A DNA stretch of 64,000 bases, taken from NCBI RefSeq assembly GCF_002005105.1, contig NZ_MSCV01000006.1:1-64000 (forward strand), written 5' to 3'. The notes beneath the pieces were generated by a model, which was not told where the DNA came from, did not search any database, and saw only the letters and a list, made by a program, of their open reading frames with translations. Origin of the DNA: Methylocaldum sp. 14B. Its GTDB lineage: Bacteria; Pseudomonadota; Gammaproteobacteria; Methylococcales; Methylococcaceae. The position numbers and the translations under genes are program-made. Of this stretch, positions 144 through 7,260 are shown in pieces (the first letter of the stretch is position 1; the number at the start of each line of letters is the position of its first letter).

Positions 144-2384
144 ATGGTGATCAGGCAAGAATCGGTACATCGTTTTTCCGGTCTGGCAAGTTCCGGCCGC
201 GAGCTTTTTTTTGCACGTCGAAGCTTTATACATTTATTCCGGCCGGCCGCGGTTCTGCTGCTGACTTTCCTGCTTGCCGCCTGCGGCAGTCCTCTGAACA
301 ATCCTTATCCGGCCGGGGACAAGGGCAGGAACATTCTTTATACCTCCTTCACCGAGCGGCCCAAGCACCTGGACCCGGCGCGGGCCTACAGCTCGAATGA
401 ATACGAGATCATCGCCCAGATTTACGAGCCGCTGTTGCAGTATGCCTATCTGAAAAGGCCCTATCAGCTCGAGCCGCTGACGGCGGAGGCTCTGCCAATA
501 GTGACTTACCTCGATAAGGATTTGCGTCCGCTCCCGGACAACGCGCCTGAGGAACGGATAGCGTACAGCGAATACGATATTCGCCTTCGTCCGAACATCC
601 TGTTTCAGCCTCATCCGGCATTCGCCAGGAACGGCGATGGGAGCTTTCGCTATCACGCGCTGACCGAAGGCGAATTGGCGAAAATAAGCACGATTACCGA
701 TTTTGCCGAAACCGGCGCCCGAGAGCTGACGGCCGAGGATTACGCTTATCAGATCAAGCGGCTGGTGCATCCCCAGCTGCATTCTCCGATCGCCGAGATG
801 ATGAAGAGTTATATCGTCGGTCTCAAGGAGACGGGCGAGCGGATGGCGAAGGATTTCGACGCCCGGCCGGATAAATCGGAATTTTTCGATATTCGCGGCT
901 ATACCGTGGAGGGCGTCGACATCGCCGATGCGCACCGCTTGAAGATCCGGCTGCACGGCAAGTATCCGCAGTTCCGCTTCTGGCTGGCGATGCCGTTTTT
1001 TGCCCCCATGCCTTGGGAAGCGGATGCGTTTTATGCCCAGAGGGGGTTGATCGAAAAGAACATCACCCTCGACTGGTATCCGGTCGGCACCGGCGCCTAT
1101 ATGCTGGCGGAGAACAATCCGAACCGGCGCATGGTGTTGCTGAAAAACCCCAATTATCACGATGAGTTCTACCCGGCAGAGGGCGAGCCGGAGGATGCGG
1201 CGAAGGGTTACTTGAAGGATGCCGGGCAAAAGCTGCCGTTTATCGAGAAAGTCGTCTTCACTTTGGAAAAGGAAACGATTCCCTATTGGAACAAGTTCCT
1301 GCAGGGCTATTACGACGCCTCGGGGATCGCTTCGGACAATTTCGATCAGGCCGTCCAGTTCACCGGGCAGAACGATGCCGAACTGACGCCGGAGATGAAG
1401 GCCAAGGATATCCACTTGGAGACGGCGATCACGACGACCATATTCTATATGGGCTTCAACATGCTCGATGCCACGGTGGGCGGGCTGGACGAGGCCAAAT
1501 CCAAGCTTCGCCAAGCCATCAACATCGCGGTCGATTACGAGGAATTCATCGATATTTTCATCAACGGACGCGGCGTTCCGGCCCTGGGGATTTTGCCTCC
1601 GGACATTTTCGGTCACGTCGAGGGCAAGGACGGGATCAACCCTTACGTGTACGACTGGGCGGACGGCGCGCCGCGCCGCAAGAACATCGAGGCCGCGAAA
1701 AAGCTCCTGGCCGAGGCCGGCTACCCCAACGGTGTCGACGCCAAGACCGGCAGGCCCTTGGTGCTTTATCTCGATACCGTGGCGCGGGGCCCCGACGACA
1801 AATCGATTCTGAACTGGTACCGCAAGCAATTCGCCAAGCTCGGCATTCAGCTGGTGCTGCGCACCACCGATTACAACCAGTTCCAGCAGAAGATGCTGAA
1901 CGGCAACGCACAGATTTTTATGTGGGGCTGGAATGCCGATTATCCCGACCCGGAAAACTTCTTTTTCCTGGTGTACGGCGAGAACGCCAAGGTGGGCAAG
2001 GGCGGAGAGAACGCGGCCAATTATAAGAACCCGGAATTCGATCGCTTGTTCGAGCGTATGCGCAACATGGACGACGGGGAGGAGCGTTTCCGTATCATCC
2101 AGGCCATGCAGGAAATCCTTAGGCACGATTCGCCCTGGTTATTCGGTTATCATCCCAAGGCTTTTTCGCTGCATCATGACTGGTTCCGCAACCTCAAACC
2201 CAATCTGATGGCCAACAACGGGCTCAAGTACCGGCGCATCGAAGCCGAGCAGCGGGAGCTCAAGCGGGCGGAGTGGAACCGGCCGATCTATTGGCCGCTG
2301 GCCGCGGGTTCGGGGCTGCTGGTCGCGGCGATCGTCCCGGCCTATTCGACCTATCGCCGCCGCATGAGGTCCACCGCGTTATGA
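144..2384 (+). CDS. Oligopeptide ABC transporter substrate-binding lipoprotein (YejA/SBP_bac_5 family)
   Basis: Binds peptides in the periplasm for the permease and ATPase encoded just downstream. The 746-residue product has a long positively charged start, a hydrophobic stretch and a lipobox ending LLAAC at Cys47, so it is probably a lipoprotein. The rest is a family 5 extracellular binding domain, with typical text such as MWGWNADYPDPENFF near residues 593-607. Unusually, a second hydrophobic segment at about 717-735 followed by RRR suggests a C-terminal membrane anchor. The family is normally 500-620 residues, so this is long. ATG144 is the only good start before the lipobox (GTG147 is equally possible). 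The stop overlaps the permease start (ATGA). A TATAAT at 130-135 lies too close to the start for a normal leader, so I do not call it a promoter. The exact substrate is not determinable. Confidence 0.9.
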   Translation: MVIRQESVHRFSGLASSGRELFFARRSFIHLFRPAAVLLLTFLLAACGSPLNNPYPAGDKGRNILYTSFTERPKHLDPARAYSSNEYEIIAQIYEPLLQYAYLKRPYQLEPLTAEALPIVTYLDKDLRPLPDNAPEERIAYSEYDIRLRPNILFQPHPAFARNGDGSFRYHALTEGELAKISTITDFAETGARELTAEDYAYQIKRLVHPQLHSPIAEMMKSYIVGLKETGERMAKDFDARPDKSEFFDIRGYTVEGVDIADAHRLKIRLHGKYPQFRFWLAMPFFAPMPWEADAFYAQRGLIEKNITLDWYPVGTGAYMLAENNPNRRMVLLKNPNYHDEFYPAEGEPEDAAKGYLKDAGQKLPFIEKVVFTLEKETIPYWNKFLQGYYDASGIASDNFDQAVQFTGQNDAELTPEMKAKDIHLETAITTTIFYMGFNMLDATVGGLDEAKSKLRQAINIAVDYEEFIDIFINGRGVPALGILPPDIFGHVEGKDGINPYVYDWADGAPRRKNIEAAKKLLAEAGYPNGVDAKTGRPLVLYLDTVARGPDDKSILNWYRKQFAKLGIQLVLRTTDYNQFQQKMLNGNAQIFMWGWNADYPDPENFFFLVYGENAKVGKGGENAANYKNPEFDRLFERMRNMDDGEERFRIIQAMQEILRHDSPWLFGYHPKAFSLHHDWFRNLKPNLMANNGLKYRRIEAEQRELKRAEWNRPIYWPLAAGSGLLVAAIVPAYSTYRRRMRSTAL

Positions 2385-3358
2385 TCCGCTATATCATCCG
2401 CCGCGTGCTCTACGCTCTTCCGCTGCTATTGGGCGTGAACATCCTGACCTTTCTGCTGTTCTTCGTGGTGAATACGCCGGACGACATGGCGCGTATGCAT
2501 CTCGGGGAGAAGCATGTCACCCAGGAGGCGGTCGAAGGGTGGAAACACGAGCGCGGCTACGATTTGCCCCTGTTCTGGAACGATAAAGCGGAAGGCGCCG
2601 AGAAGGCGACCCGGACGATTTTTTATCAGAAGTCGGTGGGTCTGTTTATGTTTCGGTTCGGACGTTCCGACAGCGGACGCGAAATCGGCGCCGATATCCG
2701 TCAGCGCATGTGGCCGTCCCTCGCCATCGCGGTGCCTTCGCTCATCGTCGGGCTTTTGGTGCACATCAGCCTGGCGCTACTCCTGGTGTTTTTCCGGCTG
2801 ACTTATCTGGAATTCTGGGGCATTGCCTTGTGCGTCGCGCTGATGTCCGTTTCGTTCCTGTTCTACATCATCGGCGGACAATACCTATTGGGAAAACTGC
2901 TGCAGCTCACGCCGATCTCGGGTTACGACTCCGGAGTCAACGCTATCCGTTTCCTGATCCTGCCCTTGGCCATCAGCGTGGTTGCCGGCATTGGTTCCGG
3001 CGTGCGCTGGTATCGAACCCTGTTCCTGGAGGAAGTGGAGAAGGATTATGTCCGTACCGCGCGGGCCAAGGGGCTGTCCGAGCCGCAGGTGCTGTTCGGG
3101 CATGTGCTCAAGAATGCGATGATTCCTATTTTGACCGGGGTGGTCGTGGTGCTGCCCTTGCTGTTCACCGGCAGTCTGATCACCGAATCGTTCTTCGCCA
3201 TTCCGGGGCTAGGCAGCTATACCATCGATGCCATCAGCCAGCAGGATTTCGCCATCGTGCGCGCCATGGTGTTTCTAGGCTCTGCGCTTTACGTCCTCGG
3301 TCTTCTGCTGACCGATCTTTCCTATACGCTGGTCGATCCAAGGGTGAGGCTGGGTTGA
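2381..3358 (+). CDS. yejB: Peptide ABC transporter permease (YejB-type)
   Basis: Inner-membrane permease of a peptide importer, 325 residues. It opens with MIRYIIRRVLYALPLL, the classic first transmembrane helix of DppB/OppB/YejB permeases. It carries the binding-protein-dependent transport (EAA) loop near residues 225-235 (YVRTARAKGLSEPQV) that contacts the ATPase, and ends with the family tail TDLSYTLVDPRVRLG. The start is set at ATG2381 because it overlaps the stop of the binding-protein gene in an ATGA arrangement. The reading frame is open further upstream but that part is out of frame with any homology. A YejB-like extended first loop is present. It is first of two permeases; the second begins only at 3731 because the junction has been invaded. 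Confidence 0.92.
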   Translation: MIRYIIRRVLYALPLLLGVNILTFLLFFVVNTPDDMARMHLGEKHVTQEAVEGWKHERGYDLPLFWNDKAEGAEKATRTIFYQKSVGLFMFRFGRSDSGREIGADIRQRMWPSLAIAVPSLIVGLLVHISLALLLVFFRLTYLEFWGIALCVALMSVSFLFYIIGGQYLLGKLLQLTPISGYDSGVNAIRFLILPLAISVVAGIGSGVRWYRTLFLEEVEKDYVRTARAKGLSEPQVLFGHVLKNAMIPILTGVVVVLPLLFTGSLITESFFAIPGLGSYTIDAISQQDFAIVRAMVFLGSALYVLGLLLTDLSYTLVDPRVRLG

Positions 3359-3420: not shown

Positions 3421-3606
3421 ATGAACAGAGAATACACGGCGATTACCAAGCAAATCGGCGAATGGCGGGTGGGATGGATCGAAGAAATCCCCGGCGTGAA
3501 TTGCCAGGAAAGAACTCATGAAGAGTTGTTGAAAAGCCTCAGGATAACTCTGATCGAGGCGCTGCAATTCAATCACGAGGAGGCGAGTTCTCGTAGGGTG
3601 GGTTAG
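3421..3606 (+). pseudogene. Truncated HicB-family antitoxin
   Basis: The 61-residue frame begins MNREYTAITKQIGEW and contains GWIEEIPGVNCQERTHEEL, the hallmark of HicB/UPF0150 antitoxins. It breaks off after the helix LRITLIEALQFNHEEASS. The last few residues (RRVG) and the stop codon come from the palindromic repeat that starts at 3593. Family members normally run another 8-15 residues. A short frame at 3674-3724 after the repeat resembles a HicA tail, so this looks like the left end of a broken HicBA module lying in the yejB-yejE junction. It could still make a shortened protein. The family call is firm; loss of function is inference. Confidence 0.7.
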
Positions 3607-3672
3607 GCCGCGAGGCCGTAACCCACCGAGAGACCTCGGATTGGTGGGTTACGCTGCGCTAACCCACCCTAC
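3593..3672. repeat. Double palindromic REP-like element (family B)
   Basis: Outer 13-nt arms GTAGGGTGGGTTA (3593-3605) and TAACCCACCCTAC (3660-3672) are perfect inverted repeats. Inside are TAACCCACC (3619-3627) and GGTGGGTTA (3643-3651), so the element can fold as two neighbouring hairpins, like a pair of REP units in a BIME. Its left edge supplies the stop codon of the truncated hicB. Confidence 0.85.
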
Positions 3673-3673
3673 A

Positions 3674-3724
3674 ATTAATCTTCTCAAGATTTGCAAGGAC
3701 TTAGGTGTGCCGCTCGCAAAGTAA
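3674..3724 (+). pseudogene. Possible 3' remnant of a HicA-family toxin gene
   Basis: Immediately after the palindromic element a 16-residue frame reads INLLKICKDLGVPLAK and then TAA. This resembles the C-terminus of the HicA toxins that pair with HicB proteins of the type at 3421, which end in a motif like LLxKKICKDLGIP from memory of the family. The rest of the toxin, including the catalytic GSH motif, is missing. The fragment is short, so the call is tentative. Confidence 0.4.
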
Positions 3725-3730
3725 TCCGAC

Positions 3731-5119
3731 ATGTTGAAGCTGCTCTGGACCGACATTCTGTTCTTCATCCTGCTGGCGGGGTTCGCCGTGCTCGTCGTCC
3801 GGGCCAGGGGCCGCGAGCATTTGCGCCGGCCCTGGCGCAAGGTGGCGCAGAGCCGCAGCGCCATGGTGTCGCTGGTAATTCTGCTGGCTTACCTTTTCAT
3901 TGCCGTATTGGATTCGATCCACTTTCATCCGCGGATTGAAGGCGAAAACGGCCAATACCAAGGCGAGGTGATCAGCGTGCTGGACAGCTGGATGACGCCG
4001 ATCCGGACGCGCGTGGAAAAAACCTATTCGGCGCCTTTTTCGTCCTACGCCTATGCCAAGGAAATGATCCGTCAGCCGGACGGTACGCAACGATGGGACT
4101 ATCCCCGTTTGCAATACGGCGGCGCGCATCTGGCCGATCCGGAACACGAGAATATAGCGGATATTCTGACGACCGGCATGAAGGGATTTGGAAAGGGAGT
4201 ATTGGTCTGGCTATTGCCGGCTTTGCTGGTCGTCGCCTGGCGCAGCCGCCAGGACCGTATCGGTCCGGCCGAGAGTTTCAAGCGCATCGCCCTCGGCCGA
4301 ACGGAAATTCCGTGGCGGGCCGCATTACTGACGCTGTTCCTCATTTTGGCATGCGGCGGCACGCTGGGCGAGCTGGGGCTGCGCTATCACGTGCTCGGCA
4401 CGGACAAGGTCGGCGAGGACGTGTTCTACCAAAGCCTCAAGAGCGTTCGGACCGGGCTTTTGATCGGCACCCTGACCACCTTCGCTACGCTGCCGCTGGC
4501 CTTGGGATTCGGTATCCTCGCCGGTTATTTCCGCGGCTGGGTCGACGATGTGATCCAGTATCTTTACACCACCCTCAATTCCATCCCCGGCGTGCTGCTC
4601 ATCGCTGCCGCCATGCTCATCATGCAGGTGTACATGGCCCGGCACGAGGACGACTTCGCCAGCCTGGCGCTGCGGGCCGATTTCAGGCTGCTGTTTCTTT
4701 GCCTGATTCTCGGCATGACCAGCTGGACCGGCTTGTGCCGCCTGCTCCGCGCGGAAACCCTGAAGTTGCGCGAAATGGAATACGTTCAGGCGGCTCGGGC
4801 GCTGGGCGTCAGGCAAGGCACGATCCTGGCGCGGCATATCCTGCCCAACGTATTCCATCTGGTGCTGATTTCGGTAGCCCTGGATTTCAGTTCGCTCGTG
4901 CTGGCCGAGGCCGTGCTGTCGTACGTGAATATCGGCGTCGATCCCACCATGGAGAGCTGGGGCAACATGATCAACAGCGCCCGGCTCGAAATGGCGCGGG
5001 ACCCGGTGGTGTGGTGGTCGTTGGCGGCCGCGTTTCTGTTCATGTTCACCCTGGTGCTCGCCGCCAATCTTTTTGCGGATGCCGTGCGGGATGCTTTCGA
5101 TCCGAGGCGGGCGGAGTGA
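3731..5119 (+). CDS. yejE: Peptide ABC transporter permease (YejE-type)
   Basis: Second inner-membrane permease of the peptide importer, 462 residues. YejE-type features are visible: an N-terminal membrane helix, the motif HLRRPWRKVAQSRSAMVSL, a large periplasmic insertion (about residues 60-150) holding ENGQYQG and SYAYAKEMI, and a C-terminal transport domain. The EAA loop is near 355-370 (EYVQAARALGVRQGTI) and is followed by HILPNVFHLVL. The length is greater than E. coli YejE (about 340) because of an extra membrane segment around residues 155-170 and a longer middle region. The gene is separated from yejB by a broken HicBA/REP insertion and from the ATPase gene by an intact HicBA pair, but all lie on one strand and probably on one transcript. 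Confidence 0.9.
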   Translation: MLKLLWTDILFFILLAGFAVLVVRARGREHLRRPWRKVAQSRSAMVSLVILLAYLFIAVLDSIHFHPRIEGENGQYQGEVISVLDSWMTPIRTRVEKTYSAPFSSYAYAKEMIRQPDGTQRWDYPRLQYGGAHLADPEHENIADILTTGMKGFGKGVLVWLLPALLVVAWRSRQDRIGPAESFKRIALGRTEIPWRAALLTLFLILACGGTLGELGLRYHVLGTDKVGEDVFYQSLKSVRTGLLIGTLTTFATLPLALGFGILAGYFRGWVDDVIQYLYTTLNSIPGVLLIAAAMLIMQVYMARHEDDFASLALRADFRLLFLCLILGMTSWTGLCRLLRAETLKLREMEYVQAARALGVRQGTILARHILPNVFHLVLISVALDFSSLVLAEAVLSYVNIGVDPTMESWGNMINSARLEMARDPVVWWSLAAAFLFMFTLVLAANLFADAVRDAFDPRRAE

Positions 5120-5189: not shown

Positions 5190-5393
5190 ATGAAATTAAA
5201 AGTGATCGTCCATCAGGCCGAGGAGGGCGGTTATTGGGCTGAAATTCCTGCGATTCCAGGCTGTGCTTCTCAAGGCGAAACCTTAGAGGAGTTGTTGGCG
5301 AATCTTCATGAGGCCGTAGAAGCTTGCTTGTCCATTGAGGTCGAGGAGAAAGGTCTCGCACAGACGGACAGGATTTTGGAGATCGCCGTTTGA
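5190..5393 (+). CDS. hicB: HicB-family antitoxin
   Basis: Antitoxin of a type II HicBA module, 67 residues. The sequence has the partial RNase H-like HicB fold: KVIVHQAEEGGYWAEIPAIPG, then CASQGETLEELLANLHEAVEA. Short HicB proteins of this class usually neutralise the toxin by direct binding and lack a separate DNA-binding domain; none is visible here. A good ribosome site (CGGAGG, 5175-5180) precedes ATG5190. The stop overlaps the toxin start (TTGA). The antitoxin-first order is the reverse of E. coli hicAB but common for this class. It lies between yejE and yejF. Confidence 0.88.
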   Translation: MKLKVIVHQAEEGGYWAEIPAIPGCASQGETLEELLANLHEAVEACLSIEVEEKGLAQTDRILEIAV

Positions 5394-5596
5394 AAACCAT
5401 TTCCGGCAAAGCTTTAGGGAAATTGCCGGAGCGGCATGGATGGGAGCTAAAGAGAATCAACGGCAGCCATCATGTCTACGGAAAGCAAGGTTATTCGGCG
5501 CGTATTTCGGTTCCTGTTCACGGCAATGAGCCGCTCAAAATCGGGCTTCTAAAACATTTTCTTAAGGTGGCCGAAATTTCGGAGCATGAATTGTGA
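5390..5596 (+). CDS. hicA: HicA-family mRNA interferase toxin
   Basis: Toxin of the HicBA pair, 68 residues with the double-stranded RNA-binding-like HicA fold. HicA toxins cleave mRNA and depend on a histidine in a GSH motif; here it reads INGSHHVYGKQGYSARISVPVHG split as INGSHHVY followed by the usual VPVHGNEPLKIGLLKHFL. The start is TTG5390, overlapping the last codon and stop of hicB, so synthesis is coupled to the antitoxin. The stop overlaps the GTG start of the ATPase gene. The key residues are all present, so it is predicted to be active. Being inside an essential-looking frame of the transporter operon, it is co-transcribed with it. Confidence 0.88.
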   Translation: MKTISGKALGKLPERHGWELKRINGSHHVYGKQGYSARISVPVHGNEPLKIGLLKHFLKVAEISEHEL

Positions 5597-7260
5597 GTGT
5601 TGTCTCTGAGGTGCTGGAAACCGGTGTAGAGCGGCAACCGGCCAGCTCGCTTTTGTCGGTCTCCGATCTCCACGTGAGTTTCCGTCAGGGCGCGGAGCTG
5701 ATACCTGCCGTTAGCGGGGTTTCGTTTCATATCGACAAGGGCGAGACTTTCGCCCTCGTGGGCGAGTCGGGTTCGGGAAAATCGGTCACGGCGCTGTCGG
5801 TATTAAGGCTCTTGCCCCACAATGGACGAATCATGAGGGGGCAAGTGAGTCTTGGGGGCACCGATTTGTTCGGGTTGCCGGAATATGCCATGAGCGCCAT
5901 CCGTGGGCTGCGCATCGGCATTATTTTCCAGGATCCCATGAGTTCGCTGAACCCGGTCATGACGGTAGGACGGCAAATCGGCGAAGTCCTGCGCTTGCAA
6001 CGGGGTTTGCAGGGCAGGGCGGCGAGAAATCGTGCCTCGGAGCTCCTGGATCATGTGGGACTGCCGAATCCGGAGCGGCATCTGAATGAATATCCCCACC
6101 AGCTTTCCGGCGGCATGCGGCAGCGGGTCATGATTGCCATCGCTCTGGCCGGGGAGCCGGACCTCTTGATCGCCGACGAGCCGACTACCGCTTTGGACGT
6201 GACGATTCAGGCGCAAATTCTGGAGCTTCTCGAGCGACTGAAGCGCGAAAGCGGAATGGCGCTGTGGCTGATCACCCATGATTTCGGCATCGTCGCGGAA
6301 CTGGCCGACCGCGTGGCCGTCATGCGCGCCGGCAAGATCGTGGAACAGAGCGATCGAGAAGGGTTTTTCGAAAAACCGGAGCATCCTTACAGCCGCGAGC
6401 TGTTCACGGTCATGCCCCGCTTGGACGCCTGCCTAGCCCGGCCCGAAACACATCATTCGGACCCGCTGCTAGTCGTGGAGGACTTCAAGGTCCATTACCC
6501 GATCAAGCGCGGCATCCTTCAGCGGACCGTGGATTATGTCAGGGCTGTGGATGGTGTTTCGCTTTCGGTGGCGCAGGGCGAGACCCTGGCCCTGGTGGGC
6601 GAGTCCGGATGCGGCAAGACTACCCTGGGCAAGGGGATTCTCAATCTGATCGAGAATTCCGGTGGGCGGGTCCGCTTCGATGGCGCCGATATCACCGGGC
6701 TTCGCGGCGAGGAACGCCGGAAACGTTACGCCGAGATGCAGATCGTGTTTCAGGACCCGTATTCCTCCATGAATCCGCGCATGGTCGTGGGCGACATCGT
6801 CGAAGAGGGACTACGTGCCTTGCATCCGTCCATGACCGAGAAGGAGCGGCGCGAACGAGTCGAGGATTTGCTCCACAGCGTCGGTTTGCCGAAAGAGGCC
6901 CGATTGCGTTATCCGCACGAATTTTCCGGCGGACAGAGGCAGCGCATCTGCATCGCGCGGGCCTTGGCTGTCGATCCCAAGCTGATCGTGTGCGACGAGC
7001 CGACCAGCGCCCTCGACGTTTCGGTCCAAGCCCAAATTTTGAAGCTTTTGAGGGATCTGCGCGATCGGCGTGGTCTCAGTTATTTGTTCATCACCCACGA
7101 TTTGGCCGTGGTGGCCGAGTTGGCCGATCGGGTGGCGGTCATGCACCGGGGCAAGATCGTCGAAATGGGGTCGACTCAGCAAGTTCTTTTTAAGCCGGCT
7201 CACTCTTACACCAAGCGTCTGTTGGAGGCAGTGCCGAAGTTAAGAAAGGGACAAAAATAG
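5593..7260 (+). CDS. yejF: Peptide ABC transporter, duplicated ATP-binding protein (YejF-type)
   Basis: Energises the peptide importer; 555 residues forming two fused nucleotide-binding domains, equivalent to OppD plus OppF. Domain 1 has Walker A GESGSGKS at 57-64, signature LSGGMRQR and Walker [10 protein letters not shown]. Domain 2 has Walker A GESGCGKT near 336-343, FSGGQRQR and LIVCDEPTS. Each domain ends with the family's oligopeptide C-terminal extension ([12 protein letters not shown] and [12 protein letters not shown]). The start is GTG5593, which overlaps the hicA stop, so the last transporter gene is translated by coupling through the toxin gene. In E. coli YejABEF imports microcin C-like peptides; the substrate here is unknown. 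Confidence 0.93.

Follow-up and report, generated by a model that had tools for sequence, protein, structure and literature searches.

Probable relic of a HicBA toxin–antitoxin module with a dispersed GTAG-tagged REP pair at its break in an ABC-transporter operon of Methylocaldum sp. 14B

What occupies the junction between two permease genes of Methylocaldum sp. 14B, where a HicB-like frame runs into a strong palindrome and a HicA-like tail follows on its far side? The junction lies in a stretch of 64,000 nt from contig NZ_MSCV01000006.1, which was analysed as a whole and is referred to here as the window. The site is a peptide-type ABC-transporter operon (Table 1), with yejA-, yejB-, yejE- and yejF-like as short labels for its genes; Pfam backs the roles, and the matching Yej-type NCBIfam models all stay under their cut-offs. 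Further along the same operon, past the second permease and ahead of the ATPase gene, is a second HicBA module of a different subfamily, and the stop codon of its HicA overlaps the next start codon. A sequence-only reading of the window had described the HicB frame, the palindrome and the HicA-like tail between the permease genes, all of which we located where it had placed them, and it had proposed that a REP-like element stands in place of the middle of a HicBA module. In our analysis the locus is very probably a decayed type II HicBA module with a dispersed GTAG-tagged REP-pair element at the break (probability about 0.88, a figure that excludes the order of events). A match to a defence model was looked for with three proteins, and none was found.

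Table 1. Features of the transporter operon and of the remnant between its two permease genes (window coordinates).
Feature	Position	Strand	Remark
Solute-binding protein, yejA-like	144-2384		Role from Pfam
Upstream ABC-transporter permease (BPD_transp_1), yejB-like	2381-3358	+	Role from Pfam
hicB remnant, ATG frame, 61 codons + TAG	3421-3606	+	Codons 1-55 (3421-3585) homologous to HicB
Left junction, AGTTCTC, 7 nt	3586-3592	+	By reading; neither clearly HicB nor element
GTAG-tagged REP pair, GTAG...CTAC, 80 nt (BIME/REPIN-like core)	3593-3672	none	Sequence and fold
REP1	3593-3627		
Spacer, 15 nt	3628-3642		
Inverse REP2	3643-3672		
13 nt similar to the right arm in full-length copies L009 and L023	3673-3685	+	11/13 by reading
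hicA 3' end, KICKDLGVPLAK + TAA	3686-3724	+	
Downstream ABC-transporter permease, yejE-like	3731-5119	+	Role from Pfam
Second HicBA, other subfamily, both frames open	5190-5596	+	HicB 5190-5393, HicA 5390-5596
Double ATPase, yejF-like	5593-7260		Role from Pfam

The window HicB lies below every Pfam and NCBIfam cut-off, and its identity comes from its relatives: it is a homologue of the 80 best HicBs out of at least 513 HicB loci in a GTDB-species collection, 63 of which adjoin a full HicA by thresholds of our own, the remaining loci having a HicA that is partial, missing or cut. After codon 55, the residues and the stop of the remnant come from the junction and the palindrome, whose first REP contains the TAG (3604-3606), just as the sequence-only reading had it. 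With start codons picked by a simple rule, HicB has 70 aa in 58 and 67-72 aa in 77 of the best 80 loci; the three outliers are 61 aa (G005), 58 aa (L186) and 114 aa (L172). On the basis of this length survey we rejected a native 61-residue antitoxin. The outlier L186, from a Nitrospirae MAG, has no HicA that we could find downstream of its 58-residue frame and is perhaps another decayed module.

What could the shortened protein still do? In a structure model of the HicB of an intact relative (pLDDT 94.5), strands at residues 7-12, 15-20 and 27-30 precede a helix at 33-59, and against this model the window protein keeps the helix except for its last turn and lacks the tail. According to the model, the beta-beta-beta-alpha core might still fold without the C-terminal tail. 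Since helix 1 of HicB packs on HicA, as described in an excerpt of PMC10865869, the truncated HicB could by analogy still bind a HicA. Retained binding is called into question by an arginine at a position where 17 of 17 other aligned proteins have tryptophan. It is improbable that the 61-residue HicB works as a solitary antitoxin under selection, with a loss of the tail that does no harm and a palindrome that merely gives a stop; this reading is compatible with the loss of HicA. In its favour, the HicB of G005 likewise ends at residue 61 next to an open HicA frame, the modelled helix stops at residue 59 with no strand predicted among the final residues, and HicB dN to G005 (0.126) is not above that of the permease (0.165). 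However, this dN mostly reflects the time before truncation, and the synonymous sites are saturated; both the lengths of the relatives and the substitutions at aligned positions (besides the arginine, a histidine where the 17 others have R or K) speak against it.

On the far side of the palindrome only the final 12 residues of HicA are present, i.e. the toxin domain that characterises HicBA Class 2 is absent. In a search with a profile HMM built from 63 full HicAs, the tail frame came out on top of 2122 window frames (E 0.014, 11.8 bits; next frame 0.57). A six-sequence HMM again placed it at the top, though tied with the second module's HicA at 5339-5593 (both E about 0.06), and a scan of 30 loci gave one apparently spurious match in L036 with 11.0 bits, near the 11.8 bits of the tail. 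The sequence-only reading had made its case dependent on HicAs with such a tail, and in the subfamily these are the norm: the motif KI[CF][KRQA]D[LMP] occurs in 62 of the 63 full HicAs, and KICKDL exactly in 44. The score alone is weak, and it is the strand, the place and the intact orthologue that, at the level of sequence, carry the probable identification. That no HicA was ever at this site and the likeness is due to chance, as the low score and the L036 match might suggest, is very hard to reconcile with a tail frame ranking first in the window on the right strand and in the right place, and with a full HicA at the orthologous site in G005. HicA is lost from this module, and its product presumably cannot be made.

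The earlier proposal had let this tail resume at 3674. We read 3673-3685 as a putative arm of the element and HicA as beginning at 3686; the 'LL' encoded in the 13 nt could also be HicA. The arm score is equalled at 2 of 3000 random window positions, and a match of at least 10/11 to the 11-nt arm start occurs once in the whole window, counting both strands.

In order to see the junction in relatives, we searched 61 genomes for the downstream permease, found it in 57 and took the loci of the best 30. An HMM scan detected HicB of the window's subfamily at the junction in two of these 30 loci, the window and G005, and none in the other 28, which include all three other genomes of the same genus. 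In 25 of the 28 (all except L034, L053 and L054) we could identify where the upstream permease ends; 24 of these junctions are nearly empty, the gap in L037 is about 100 nt, and in the three congeners the permease stop is 3 nt from the next start.

G005, which belongs to another genus of the same family, carries an uninterrupted hicB and a 62-codon hicA at this very junction (L030 1081-1475), so that the search for an intact HicBA recommended by the sequence-only reading was successful. The HicA reaches 22 bits against PF07927 (cut-off 27) and 110 bits against the subfamily HMM; it deviates from the ICKDL motif, having IGRDL instead. Its HicB is stopped at residue 61 by an in-frame TAG, about ten codons early, while the HicA frame is open. 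A complete 61-residue antitoxin in another species had been named beforehand as evidence against an interrupted module. Taken literally there is one, this G005 protein (1 of the 80), but the codons past its TAG, REEKIAV, match the usual HicB tail. Over residues 2-55 the HicBs of G005 and the window are 78% identical, and the downstream permeases 76-77%; since HicB and permease are equally similar, this fits an old shared presence at the site. In the permease tree G005 groups with G010, whose junction is empty, and the order inside the window's genus is left open. The empty junctions in the three congeners and in G010 mean that several losses or an old transfer are needed.

The intact modules also reveal how much is missing. 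From HicB codon 55 to the K of the HicA motif KICKDL, the distance is 194 nt in all six intact modules chosen, and in the window it is 100 nt (3586-3685), made up of 7 + 80 + 13 nt. Given that the 80 nt are the REP pair, 174-194 nt of the module have been replaced, the range depending on whether the 7-nt and 13-nt junction pieces are counted as module DNA. The lost segment comprises the end of HicB and about 50 codons of HicA, which bears out the proposal that a REP-like element replaces the middle of the module.

The same holds for the nature of the element. GTAG stands at the foot of an imperfect palindrome, and two such units lie inverse to each other, which is the hallmark of a REP pair; as RNA, the palindrome folds with -51.7 kcal/mol (z -7.2). 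The element pattern has 22 matches in the window's genome, G000, versus none for a reversed-pattern control. A GTAG-anchored pattern gave 20, 14, 0 and 17 copies in G000, G001, G002 and G003, all of the same genus, and none in six genomes of other genera. According to part of PMC2817692, REPs usually exceed 100 copies per genome, whereas G000 has fewer, 20-22. When 42 copies were examined (the 22 of G000, 10 of 14 of G001 and 10 of 17 of G003), 19 left ends were found, and it became clear that full-length copies extend outward from the core, as TTCCAAAT...GTAG and CTAC...CGAATGGAA. Both ends are readable in eight of the 42, six of them measuring 141-144 nt and two being longer (191 and 208 nt), and in five of the eight the 3-bp flanks are identical, TAA or TTA. 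L007, L009, L016, L023 and L111 combine TTCC/GGAA ends with identical 3-bp flanks at 141-143 nt (191 nt in L111) and are MITE-like. Some IS5-group elements produce TNA duplications.

The window copy is a shorter version. Among 41 copies with a found core, the left arm is full in 22, partial in 7 and absent in 12 (arm score 2 or less), counts that include one orthologous pair, L022 and L123, and two copies with a different arm in common, L012 and L025. The 12 copies without left arm, the window copy being one of them, break at GTAG itself. GTAG thus looks like a natural boundary, and insertion of the core only is simpler than trimming of a full element exactly there.

Could the short interval be an assembly artefact, with two element copies that flanked a longer insert collapsed into one? 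The 20-22 near-identical cores and a draft of 84 contigs would make this conceivable, but both flanks belong to one operon in correct order, the spacer of the window copy differs from those of the other copies compared, and 80 nt is less than an ordinary read length, and we regard an artefact as highly unlikely.

As to the history of the locus, it had been suggested that a palindromic element landed in the module or that a deletion ended there; the sequence needs both, gain of an element and loss of module DNA. We envisage that the element entered the HicBA module and that the same event, or one shortly after it, removed DNA, the deletion taking most of the toxin together with the end of the antitoxin. 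Such a joint loss would be safe for the cell, because HicA would never be left without HicB. Alternatively, there may have been two separate events, i.e. an ordinary deletion first brought hicB and the hicA tail together, and the REP pair was inserted into the resulting scar afterwards. This scenario is possible, if less probable: a fusion of a HicB head with a HicA end in G022 has no palindrome, and lone HicA tails are seen at the operon's next junction in G001 and G002. On the other hand, the element lies right at the break, flanked by no more than 7 and 13 nt, and an element arriving later would need to have struck the scar. Among the loci examined there is no intermediate, neither a module with the element and undeleted nor a bare deletion at the site, and for this reason the order of events is only inferred.

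Other copies of the element give a mixed picture. In an empty-site comparison of ten of them (22 of 26 matches compared, the four short ones, L152, L157, L159 and L160, being left out), L009 against G003 comes close to a clean insertion, whereas the L018 copy occupies the place of about 200 nt present in G001 and G002. The L022 copy is common to G003, L015 is unmatched, and the remaining copies are too diverged for a clear reading. Loss of DNA beside a copy is therefore possible, not a demonstrated rule. At the convergent gene junction of L018 and L147 the element has opposite orientations in G000 and G003, and at the same junction G001 and G002 have other palindrome-rich DNA.

Y1 transposases (Y1_Tnp) number 7 in G000, 31 in G003, 5 in G001 and 3 in G002, and none of the 24 Y1_Tnp loci examined, including all seven of G000, has this GTAG-tagged REP within up to 1.5 kb; in a REPtron, a cognate tyrosine transposase gene would have the REP on its flanks. 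On these 24 loci, a transposase beside the element is disfavoured as its mover, and we make no claim that Y1 transposases move this REP. One untagged GGTGGGTTA in L062 looked unrelated. Several of the 31 matches of G003 (within L056-L085) have equal scores, which, compared with 3-7 in the three congeners, suggests a recent expansion.

The palindrome itself resembles no Rfam RNA (best 16.6 bits, gathering score 69), nor is it an intrinsic terminator, as no T run follows it; the single terminator candidate is on the minus strand at 3488-3510. The missing T run favours a transcript hairpin rather than a classic terminator, so that a strong hairpin presumably separates the two permease genes on the transporter transcript.

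The toxin end is also retained elsewhere. At the operon's next junction, G001 and G002 have no second module, but the HicA tail is kept, 43 and 42 of 54 nt matching the window's second HicBA over a stretch that spans the tail and the first part of the ATPase gene. From homologues in G030 and G015 it is clear that the retained tail is the second HicA's own end. In G002 (L027) and G001 (L029), after position 2886, it forms a mini-frame of 15-16 codons before the ATPase gene, with GGAG just upstream and a stop that overlaps the next start; G003 (L028) has none of the second HicA's tail at that junction. In G022 (L095 1501-1668, minus strand) about 49 residues of a HicB head are followed directly by the final three codons of a HicA resembling that of L089; L095 and L089 have 16 nt in common, and there is no palindrome. 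This is the weakest case. Together with the window, which has the REP pair at its break, this makes three candidate scars in one family, limited to cases that could be recognised by eye. We tentatively suggest that loss of HicBA from operons preferentially spares the 3' end of the toxin gene and leaves a recognisable 'toxin-tail scar'; a reason, equally speculative, could be that the toxin 3' end is kept because it has come to house the translation-start region of the gene that follows in the operon. If this is true, such scars are a fossil record of lost toxin–antitoxin modules.

Related genomes show the junction in three states, empty, intact and gutted, which allows the lost DNA and the gained element to be sized almost to the base. 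A small dispersed palindrome is thereby seen where a toxin–antitoxin pair was removed, and toxin tails are suggested as markers of modules that have disappeared. Among the top-ranked matches in the open-licence literature, no paper was found that deals with a REP within HicBA. Nothing is overturned: both the occurrence of REPs within genes and the decay of toxin–antitoxin modules are known already.

The locus can be compared with three known systems. In HicBA Class 2, as an excerpt of PMC10865869 describes it, hicB comes first and encodes a HicB of 63-103 codons without DNA-binding domain. The window resembles this class in gene order, in the small HicB upstream of hicA (here a shortened copy) and in the HicA of its relatives, and differs in that HicA is cut to 12 residues and HicB lacks the C-terminal tail, which by sequence would leave no working pair. 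With GTAG REPs and REP dimers (BIMEs/REPINs), as portrayed in parts of PMC3733652, PMC8266576 and PMC3116915, the element shares the GTAG that ends an imperfect palindrome, the inverse pairing and the dispersal. According to PMC3733652, such REPs often provide adjacent frames with a TAG stop and in several species are located within genes; the window element likewise gives a stop to the adjoining frame, with the difference that the stop is in the stem and not in GTAG. Further differences are that full copies have inverted ends, a length of about 143 nt and in many cases 3-bp repeats on either side, that no transposase gene adjoins this REP among the loci examined, and that the window copy stands in place of parts of two genes. 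MITEs, by the definition given in a section of PMC3733652, are approached by the full copies, which are mostly 141-144 nt long with TTCC...GGAA ends and flanks identical in five of eight. Terminal inverted repeats and a target-site duplication, present in other copies, are absent from the window copy, which is incomplete, having no left arm and hardly any of the right one. Both the module, now a relic, and the repeat at its break are of known kinds, and the locus is a clear case of ordinary gene decay.
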